From positions 806,001-870,000 of the forward strand of contig NZ_CP046315.1 of NCBI RefSeq assembly GCF_009730335.1: a stretch of DNA of 64,000 nucleotides, given 5' to 3'. The DNA is from Schaalia odontolytica. Its GTDB lineage: Bacteria; Actinomycetota; Actinomycetes; Actinomycetales; Actinomycetaceae. The notes under the pieces were generated by a model. It was given only the letters and a program-made list of their open reading frames with translations. It made no database searches and was not told where the DNA came from. Made by a program: the position numbers and the translations under genes. Positions 13,385 through 34,310 of this stretch are shown here, in pieces. Within the stretch, counting starts at the first letter, position 1. Every line of letters starts with the position of its first letter.

Positions 13385-14461
<1,077 letters not shown>

Positions 14462-14491: not shown

Positions 14492-14527
14492 GGGCGCGCG
14501 CCCGGCTGATTGGCCGGGCGCGCGCCC
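14492..14527 (+). terminator. Very GC-rich hairpin after mdh
   Basis: A perfect 14-bp stem (GGGCGCGCGCCCGG at 14492-14505, CCGGGCGCGCGCCC at 14514-14527) around the loop CTGATTGG, 30 bases after the mdh stop. A smaller ACCGCC/GGCGGT hairpin lies just before it. There is no U-tract. The DNA beyond is G/T-rich. Confidence 0.75.
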
Positions 14528-14530
14528 GCA

Positions 14531-14640
14531 TGTATGGGGGGGTTGTTGTGGGCTGGCGGGGTTGTTGTGGTGTTGTTGCGGTGTTGTTGTGCGGGTGTAG
14601 TGGGGTCGGGCAGTGTTGTTGCGGGGTTTGTCAGTGAGTG
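14531..14640. repeat. G/T-rich, GTTGTTG-repeat tract
   Basis: The plus strand here is almost only G and T: a run of seven G is followed by repeated GTTGTTG, TGGTGTTGTTG and GGGGTTG blocks. Clustered G-runs give it G-quadruplex potential. A comparable tract, on the opposite strand, lies at 16221-16290, so the two face each other across the repeat-rich segment and the GNAT gene. No coding potential. Confidence 0.7.
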
Positions 14641-14674: not shown

Positions 14675-14774
14675 GCAATGCACTAGATAGCGAGGCATTG
14701 CACTAGATAGCGCGGCAATGCACTGCATACTTCCCAGTGCAATGCTGCGCTAAGTGGTGCAACGCTACTGAGCA
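14675..14774. repeat. Array A: five 20-bp units, head-to-head around a dyad
   Basis: Exactly 100 bases in five 20-base units. Units 1-3 begin GCAATGCACT or GCATTGCACT (GCAATGCACTAGATAGCGAG at 14675). Units 4 and 5 carry the inverse (CAGTGCAATGCTGCGCTAAG at 14735; TGGTGCAACGCTACTGAGCA at 14755). The change of orientation lies in unit 3. TAGCGCGGCAATGCACT (14708-14724) pairs with AGTGCAATGCTGCGCTA (14736-14752) with two mismatches. It lies beyond the mdh terminator. Confidence 0.85.
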
Positions 14775-14851
14775 ACAAGCCCATGCGCGGCATGGCCTGC
14801 TCCATTGCTGCTCCAACACGATTCCAGCCGAGCTGTGCCGGGCAGCCCTGC

Positions 14852-14943
14852 GCCGGTTAGGGAGCATAGGGCCGGTTAGGGAGTATTACATTAGCTCCGA
14901 GCTGGTGTAATACTCCGCTAATTGGTGTAACACCACTGAGGAC
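14852..14943. repeat. Array B: 19/20-bp units, head-to-head around a dyad
   Basis: Two forward units begin GCCGGTTAGGGAG (14852 and 14871, spacing 19). Two inverse units begin GGTGTAA (14904 and 14924, spacing 20). GAGTATTACA (14881-14890) pairs perfectly with TGTAATACTC (14906-14915). The core sequence differs from arrays A and C, but the construction is the same. The 77 bases between A and B show nothing further that I can name. Confidence 0.8.
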
Positions 14944-15085
14944 CAGGGGCATTGTGGTCTGGTGCTCACCGCGCTTCGGTGAGAAGTGCTGTAACTGGCC
15001 TCTGGCCTTTGGCGTGGTGCGCAGTGTCGGACCTGTTGGCGGGGCTGCGCTGCCCCTGACGTGTATCCGCGCTGTCGCTTGTTGC

Positions 15086-15183
15086 GATCGGGTCGTGCAC
15101 CCGATCAGTGAGCATTGCACCCGCTCTGATCGGGTGCAATGCTCCTTAACGGGTGCAATGCACCTTATCGGGTGTAGCTCCGC
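15086..15183. repeat. Array C: 19-bp units with perfect inverted repeats
   Basis: Direct units CGGGTGCAATGCTCCTTAA (15131), CGGGTGCAATGCACCTTAT (15150) and a partial CGGGTGTAGCTCCGC (15169) repeat every 19 bases. GAGCATTGCACCCG (15110-15123) is the exact inverse of CGGGTGCAATGCTC (15131-15144). GATCGGGT (15086-15093) is the exact inverse of ACCCGATC (15099-15106). The 140 bases between arrays B and C contain no feature I can name. Confidence 0.85.
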
Positions 15184-15189
15184 AAAAGC

Positions 15190-15293
15190 CGCATGCAATT
15201 CCCGCGTTGGAACATCAGGCATTTAATCCGAAACATTGAAATCATGCGGTTTATGAGGTGTCGTTGATCTGTGTTCGCGGGGAATTGCATGCG
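15190..15293. repeat. 104-bp element bounded by near-perfect 17/18-bp inverted repeats
   Basis: CGCATGCAATTCCCGCG (15190-15206) is inverted as CGCGGGGAATTGCATGCG (15276-15293), with a single extra G in the second arm. The 69-base interior is AT-richer and non-coding. The shape is that of a miniature inverted-repeat element or a long cruciform. I see no clear target-site duplication. It abuts array C on the left and precedes the 3' end of the GNAT gene. Confidence 0.65.
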
Positions 15294-15326
15294 AAAGTGT
15301 GGGACGTATCTGCGGCCGATTGGGCG

Positions 15327-15836
15327 TTATGGTCGCGAGCTGCCGTCGCGTGGTTCCTCTTTGATCCAGTCGTAGGCAACGCGCTCCGTGCCGTTGGCCA
15401 CCGTGATCGTTCCGCACTCTTGGAATCCGAAGGATTCGAGCGCGCGTCGCATCGGTATGTTCTCTTCGTGAGTGTCGCATCGTAGATAATCCGCGTGTTC
15501 CGCCGCAAATCTGAAGATCGCCCGCGCAACCCCATGCCCACGCACCGCGGCCACGCGGTGGATGACGTGGTAGTCGGCATTGGAGTGCCAAGCGCCGGCG
15601 ATCTCTGTGTAGGTTTCGTCCGGACCTGGCGTGAAGGTGAAGACGGCGAGAGGTCCATCCTTGTCGGTGATGAGGAAACAGTGCTCGCTCGCGATGTCTG
15701 CCTCCGCATCGATCCGCCCTGGGTAGCAGTCAGGCCACTGGGTTGCGTTCCCATTCTCCCGCATGAACGCGCGAGCGTGCTCATAGGCACCTTCGATGAA
15801 GGCGAGGTCTGAGCGGGACGCGAGTCGAATCTGCAT
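15327..15836 (-). CDS. GNAT-family N-acetyltransferase
   Basis: A 169-residue acetyl-CoA-dependent acetyltransferase. The acetyl-CoA-binding motif A appears as HRVAAVRGHGVARAIFRFA near residue 92-110, preceded by strand beta-4 (LAVFTFTPGPDETY) and followed by the CDTHEENIPMRRALESFGF motif B region with the usual N-x-x-M/A-x-x-L. The acceptor (small molecule or protein) is not predictable. It stands alone between repeat arrays C and D. Its composition is somewhat less GC-rich than the neighbouring housekeeping genes, consistent with but not proving acquisition. Confidence 0.88.
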   Translation of the reverse strand: MQIRLASRSDLAFIEGAYEHARAFMRENGNATQWPDCYPGRIDAEADIASEHCFLITDKDGPLAVFTFTPGPDETYTEIAGAWHSNADYHVIHRVAAVRGHGVARAIFRFAAEHADYLRCDTHEENIPMRRALESFGFQECGTITVANGTERVAYDWIKEEPRDGSSRP

Positions 15837-15953
15837 CCCCCAATGATAGGAGGTGTTCGTGGCCCCTCCGATAGGTGGTGGCCTGGGCCCTATGGGCGGA
15901 GTGGTAACCCGATTGGTAGTAGTGGTGGCAGCGCGCCCAGGCTGTCACCTAAA

Positions 15954-16053
15954 GGGTTAGCGTGCGCATCAAGGGGTTAGCGTGCGTACTAAGGGGTTAA
16001 TGTGCGTATCAAGGGGTTAACGTGCACATAGAGGGGTTAAGGGCGCCACCTAG
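15954..16053. repeat. Array D: five direct 20-bp units
   Basis: Five 20-base units begin GGGTTA: GGGTTAGCGTGCGCATCAAG (15954), GGGTTAGCGTGCGTACTAAG (15974), GGGTTAATGTGCGTATCAAG (15994), GGGTTAACGTGCACATAGAG (16014) and GGGTTAAGGGCGCCACCTAG (16034). A weaker sixth copy follows at 16054. Unlike arrays A-C all units point the same way. It sits in the gap between the GNAT start and purU. The stretch 15837-15953 shows no gene. Confidence 0.9.
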
Positions 16054-16220: not shown

Positions 16221-16290
16221 CAGACAGTAACCCCGACCGCAACAACGCACCAACGCAACCCCGCCCAGCAACAACCCCACCCCGCAACCC
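16221..16290. repeat. C/A-rich tract, inverse counterpart of the 14.5-kb G/T tract
   Basis: Runs of CCCC separated by AACAACG and CAACG make the minus strand G/T-rich (GGGGTTG and GTTGTTG blocks, G-runs of three to four). It resembles the 14531-14640 tract read from the other strand. Non-coding, just upstream of purU. Confidence 0.6.
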
Positions 16291-16357
16291 CGTGGCATCT
16301 CCCGCAAACGGTGCCCCGGCCTCGTTCATGGGTATGAACCTGGCTAGACTGGCTCCC

Positions 16358-34205: not shown

Positions 34206-34310
34206 GTTCTGGATAGGAACGGCAGTTCTGGATAGGTTACTTTCCTATTCAGATCGCTCCAACCTATCCAGATCGCCATAACCTATCCGTATCGTCATGG
34301 CATATCCTCC
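34206..34310. repeat. Array E: 19-bp units, head-to-head around a dyad
   Basis: Two units begin GTTCTGGATAGG (34206 and 34225, spacing 19). Three inverse units follow at 34244, 34263 and 34282 (CCTATTCAGATCGCTCCAA, CCTATCCAGATCGCCATAA, CCTATCCGTATCGTCATGG), with a partial copy at 34301. CTGGATAGG (34228-34236) and CCTATTCAG (34244-34252) form the central dyad with one mismatch. The layout matches arrays A-C at 14.7-15.2 kb, although the core sequence differs. Confidence 0.85.

Follow-up and report, generated by a model that had tools for sequence, protein, structure and literature searches.

The window analysed here is the whole 64,000-nt stretch C1:806001-870000 of a single-contig 2.43-Mb genome. 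We regard the host as Schaalia-like, as the nearest named relatives of its malate dehydrogenase include that of Schaalia sp. Marseille-Q2122 (80% protein identity). Between the mdh gene and a gene for a GNAT-family acetyltransferase lies a gap of 865 bp which, since the two genes are encoded on opposite strands and face each other, is convergent. This gap alone carries repeated elements of three subfamilies, A, C and B. The features are the following (strand in brackets where one applies):

13472-14461 (+): malate dehydrogenase gene mdh, left neighbour (Ldh_1_N, Ldh_1_C)
14675-14774 (-): array A, five 20-bp units, body of a subfamily A element; copies genus-wide
14675-14724: units 1-3, core GCAWTGCACT, unit starts 14675, 14695 and 14715
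14725-14735: centre of array A between both runs, 11 bases, GCATACTTCCC on the + strand
14736-14774: units 4-5, inverse core AGTGCAATGC / GGTGCAACGC, unit starts 14735 and 14755
14768-14780 (-): conserved head GCTTGTTGCTCAG, with CCGCG before it, common to subfamilies A, B and C at one end
14695-14791 (-): extent of the element in its match to sequence model R1 (86 bits, E 3.5e-25)
14872-14946 (-): partly decayed sister element of subfamily C with cores of the GGTGTAATAC type
15066-15161 (+): sister element of subfamily B with GGGTGCAATGC cores and, at 15077, the head GCTTGTTGC
15327-15836 (-): GNAT-family acetyltransferase gene, right neighbour (match to 2pc1, E 3.8e-18)

On inspection of the sequence, array A consists of five 20-bp units over 14675-14774 whose orientation is reversed in mid-array, the units starting at 14675, 14695 and 14715 reading GCAATGCACT, GCATTGCACT and GCAATGCACT. 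A preliminary description of this DNA had reported this arrangement, and the observation holds: the self-match at offset 20 is 0.55, compared with a maximum of 0.50 at the best offset between 10 and 40 in 300 shuffled 100-base stretches. TRF reported no more than the first 2.5 units, as the orientation is reversed beyond them. The repeat had also been called exact, which is correct for the spacing but not for the sequence, since unit 5 is degenerate (GTGCAACGC). Similarly, the proposed dyad with 17-base arms (14708-14724 and 14736-14752) is present, but the arms are identical at only 15/17 positions, a match reached by 3/300 shuffles and hence not very rare taken alone. The element extends past the array and begins, on the minus strand, with the head GCTTGTTGCTCAG. 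Array A is thus not self-contained; it is a module within a family of dispersed repeats.

Directly after mdh, at 14492-14527, lies a strong G+C-rich hairpin (GGGCGCGCGCCCGGC / GCCGGGCGCGCGCCC) which is probably the gene's own terminator, so that array A is not needed in this capacity. A MITE-like element of ~110 bp occupies ~15190-15297, with inverted ends GCATGCAATTCC ... GGAATTGCATGC (or ACGTAATTCC ... GGAATTACGT); it often adjoins arrays and is also found near 474 kb, 332 kb and 763 kb in the same genome. About four 20-bp tandem units (GGGTTAGCGTGCGCATCAAG) in one orientation are present at 15949-16040, in the gap from which the GNAT gene and a purU-like gene diverge. The flanks of the region (14535-14600 and 16229-16292) are of low complexity, GTTGTTG-rich and CAACAACCCC-rich.

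A dispersed intergenic family and its turnover

The family comprises dispersed intergenic elements of ~100-125 bp with a conserved head, CTTGTTGC. The 29 aligned copies fall into three subfamilies (A, B and C) with one layout, in which the head (CCGCGnnnGGGCTTGTTGC) is followed by a left run, usually of two units but sometimes of three, then by a centre of 11 nt and finally by two to five units that form the right run. The core is AGTGCAWTGC in A, GGTGTAATGC in C and GGGTGYANYGC in B, and a fourth subfamily, B2, has the core GGTTGAATCTTCCC; the 11-nt centre of array A also fits copies of A, B, B2 and C. No module is conserved at the opposite end among the aligned copies, where only the head CTTGTTGC is conserved and one unit type builds both runs. 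Searching the array's own genome revealed further copies with the same orientation change, the flank GCTTGTTGC being common on one side.

With array A as query, matches were obtained in 9/35 genomes of the genus, up to 20 per genome. The sequence-only model R1, built from the aligned A, B and C copies, detects about 16 elements in the genome from which array A comes. Its carriers, 11/213 Actinomycetaceae genomes, all belong to one genus; ten of them have 15-44 matches and the eleventh (G015) 2-3, counts in which one array can match on both strands. We are thus dealing with an extragenic, multi-copy and clade-specific repeat, and for array A this conservation, expressed by the element counts in its own and the carrier genomes, is the decisive evidence against a chance origin. 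The search across relatives suggested in the preliminary description finds a family that is multi-copy in carrier genomes, located between genes and variable in unit number; it is neither absent from all relatives nor a known repeat lacking the dyad. Phage and plasmid collections contained no DNA similar to array A, and an origin from either was rejected for this reason.

The elements are found mainly between convergent genes. Of the 62 element clusters identified in 8 genomes, 38 lie in convergent gaps, 14 in tandem and 2 in divergent ones, with 8 unclear. These and the following counts are approximate because the calls of the simple codon-based gene caller are crude (it missed the GNAT gene, which was identified separately). 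When orthologues are merged and the window locus is set to convergent by hand, 26 independent loci remain, 17 convergent, 8 tandem and 1 divergent, an excess of convergent gaps with a P of 1.6e-5 against an assumed 25% and a Fisher P of 5e-4 against 4/26 gaps in the window. At tandem gaps, the element is oriented in the direction of the genes in 7/8 loci. BOX and other pneumococcal repeats are likewise over-represented between convergent genes, which has been read as tolerance (PMC3049150), and a similar bias has been reported for REP elements (PMC1525189).

At orthologous gaps the unit number varies in whole 19-20-bp steps. A uvrA-like locus is empty in five genomes, with 95-97 bp, compared with 337-686 bp including a B array in four; a second locus is empty in three genomes (69-92 bp) and filled with two to four elements in five (396-915 bp). 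The gene names at both loci, including the uvrA-like one, are those that we presume from recognition of the sequences. Neither comparison revealed a visible target-site duplication or a terminal inverted repeat pair, and a clean insertion signature was rejected, the filled and empty sites differing by replacement of the whole gap. The comparison of G000 with G005 at 2041 kb was discarded as an insertion case because a larger rearrangement confounds it. G005, a genome of the same species, has a fairly degenerate copy, so any single copy looks dispensable. One gap in G022 (L304, C7:99549-100664) contains four elements in the order C, A, B2, C, and its relatives have A-C, A-B2, C-A or none; judging from these arrangements the turnover appears cassette-like.

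Family D, arranged in the same way

Next to one of the C elements lies an array of a second family, D, whose CCTATCCAGA units have a period of 19, a 7-nt A/T-rich centre and a modal 3+3 arrangement. Its mirror runs flank TTATTAA, and it shares the layout of A/B/C while being unrelated in sequence. One copy lies within the window:

34208-34291: family D copy between convergent genes, CCTATCCAGA units, period 19, opposed runs

In the own genome the two-unit pattern of family D gives 33 hits, against 0 for a reversed control. The family occurs in the same clade as A/B/C, with up to 104 hits in G020 and a single array each in G009 and G018; pattern hits outside the genus (G112, G113) were rejected, as they did not form centred arrays. 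Arrays are seen at many loci of G000, G020, G022 and G026, and at one locus of G020 (L333, C1:452800-458000, positions 2388-2878 therein) about three tandem copies of a complete 4+4 array follow one another at intervals of 173 bp.

Across 27 family D arrays the 10-bp core is nearly invariant, and the spacing of 19 and the centre offset of 17 are kept in nearly all arrays. The 9-nt spacers at mirror positions are no more alike (3.05/9) than those of different arrays (3.10/9); spacers on the same side are more alike (4.41/9). The first seven loci in the own genome, including the window copy, are convergent in six cases and tandem in one, and a wider set comprises 12 convergent, 9 tandem, 2 divergent and 1 unclear gap.

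Core constraint, arm pairing and rival explanations

In six orthologous loci of A/B/C elements the divergence is 0.090 in the cores, 0.163 in the spacers and 0.19-0.34 in the flanks, with unit cores diverging about half as fast as spacers. Core divergence is the lower of the two in 37/40 pairs, although these are non-independent and the 332-kb locus is weak on its own. Constrained core sites, freer spacers and a fixed phasing are thus found at A/B/C loci and in family D alike, as would be expected of a docking array for proteins. That two families without sequence relationship have one layout in common also suggests that DNA-binding proteins may dock there.

The same arrays might instead act as RNA, their transcribed runs folding as a long hairpin which would either act as a terminator or shield the 3' end of the mRNA, a reading that we consider improbable. 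It would account for the predicted fold of array A (-64 kcal/mol, z -4.3), for the near-perfect hairpins of several C, B and B2 copies and for the agreement with gene direction in 7/8 tandem loci. However, when arms were swapped between elements of a subfamily, pairing was no better inside an element (all P 0.24; A P 0.97; B likewise), apart from a slight excess of true pairing in B2 (P 0.005) and C (P 0.013). Since arms pair no better within than between elements, DNA sites are favoured over an RNA hairpin, and the mirror symmetry resembles a pair of runs of one DNA site more than a maintained hairpin. This weakens the RNA-hairpin reading for A, while C and B2 may have a hairpin role. RNAalifold did return a structure with 10 doubly changed pairs, but the changes mostly track subfamilies and were rejected as compensatory, given the absence of within-element compensation in the arm-swap test except weakly in C and B2. 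The balance of G-U and A-C mismatches favours one strand in C and the other in B; because of this reversal, a strand bias in folding energy was rejected as evidence for RNA. The mirror spacers of family D are non-complementary, and array A itself showed neither a terminator-like site nor a U-tract after the stem in a terminator scan, nor anything significant in an Rfam scan, where only chance-level miRNA matches appeared.

The most serious alternative is a mobile repeat of the MITE or BOX kind, itself non-autonomous, in which the units would be binding sites of an externally supplied transposase and copies would spread and decay; convergent gaps would simply be where insertions do no harm. It overlaps with the docking model, a transposase likewise needing sites of this kind, and differs in who benefits; we regard it as a real possibility, though short of probable. 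The many copies per genome within one clade, the conserved head CTTGTTGC, the degenerate copies, the presence or absence at orthologous gaps (69-97 bp empty compared with 337-915 bp filled) and the variable order of elements at the C-A-B2-C locus of one species all fit such a history. On the other hand, empty and filled sites differ by neither a terminal inverted repeat pair nor a target-site duplication, unit number varies at both ends, phage and plasmid hits are lacking, and the Y1/RAYT transposase (PF01797) was detected in 0/35 genomes of the genus while positive controls were found. Moreover, family D copies keep their cores and differ in their spacers, unlike recent copies of one mobile unit. 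That the arrays are functionless tandem repeats produced by slippage and inverted duplication is very hard to credit: such an origin predicts the greater likeness of same-side spacers in family D and agrees with the variable unit number, but not with cores conserved relative to spacers, nor with a centre and period that are constant at unrelated positions in two unrelated families.

Putative docking sites and known repeat systems

We therefore return to the docking array, in which protein binding is likely, as far as can be judged from sequence. The array would be a double-sided docking site in DNA, the 9-10-bp cores being bound by a sequence-specific protein or a few related ones. With cores at a fixed 19-20-bp step in opposed runs round a fixed centre, the assembled oligomer would be identical from either side. 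At the 3' ends of genes, mostly convergent ones, this assembly could act as a two-way boundary, either by blocking read-through from both sides or by retaining the supercoils and topoisomerases which accumulate at such gene ends. A docking array with such a boundary as its most plausible use at gene ends is the best explanation we can offer, with about even prospects of being right; the two-way boundary role specifically is speculative and somewhat doubtful. Several points count against the docking model: four or more different cores in a genome call for more than one protein or for one of lax specificity, and the convergent bias is also explained by insertion tolerance. The degenerate copy in G005, the hairpin that mdh has of its own and the slight excess of arm pairing in B2 and C weigh on the same side. 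A bolder proposal, rather unlikely in our judgement, is that this Schaalia-like clade of Actinomycetaceae uses a new class of chromosomal boundary, opposed-run arrays at convergent gene ends on which at least two sequence-unrelated families would have converged, each with its own putative protein stopping transcription or fixing topology from both sides.

Phased protein binding had already been proposed in the preliminary description, and the fixed unit length, the gain and loss of whole units, the conservation of cores over spacers, the arms without within-element pairing and the presence in relatives all speak for it. The further suggestion that bound proteins lie on one face of the DNA does not hold exactly: at 10.5 bp per turn, 20 bp correspond to 1.90 turns and sites drift round the helix, as do those of family D (19 bp, 1.81 turns).

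In being short, extragenic, present in many copies per genome, clade-specific and often located between convergent genes, with subfamilies clustered in one gap, the elements resemble REP/BIME sequences (PMC1525189, PMC3733652). REPs, however, are palindromes of 20-40 bp tagged GTAG or CGTC, whereas the units here are non-palindromic, follow each other in steps of 19-20 bp and form opposed runs; neither tag is a conserved end in the subfamily alignment, arm pairing is not maintained in A, B or D, and the RAYT (Y1) transposase that goes with REPs is absent from this genus. Identity with REP/RAYT was rejected in view of the missing transposase, palindrome and tag. The BOX elements of Streptococcus pneumoniae (boxA-boxB(n)-boxC) are similarly modular and intergenic, with variable internal units and over-representation between convergent genes (PMC3049150). 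They differ in having distinct boxA and boxC ends and an internal unit in one orientation, in contrast to the single short unit type used here in both opposed runs. The resemblance to REP/BIME and BOX is that of a clade-specific small repeat at gene ends; the defining features that were tested, namely REP palindrome and tag, RAYT and BOX end modules, are missing here.

MITEs and transposon ends such as those of Tn7 and Mu contain several ~20-bp transposase-binding sites, in opposite directions at the two ends. Repeated ~20-bp sites with opposed directions are common to both, but in the present arrays a mere 7-11 bp separate the runs, and each side has a variable number of sites. Neither a terminal inverted repeat nor a target duplication was found, nor, in a search for the Y1 family, a transposase. 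Protein-roadblock terminators, e.g. TTF-I at the Sal boxes of mammalian rDNA, likewise rely on short oriented protein sites repeated downstream of genes; here the runs are opposed and the setting is bacterial.

The preliminary description knew of no element with this construction, and in the literature covered by our partial search we too found no precedent for opposed-run arrays; the part of the Actinomyces/Schaalia literature that was covered contained no such repeats and nothing relevant. Most short interspersed repeats of bacteria are of the REP or BOX kind, and hairpins and transposases are invoked to account for them. Both families described here keep a grammar of sites (step, mirror orientation and centre) at convergent gene ends while the spacers drift, which points to DNA-binding proteins and offers a testable system for the role of repeats at gene ends. 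The differences in unit number would also be of use as strain-typing markers.
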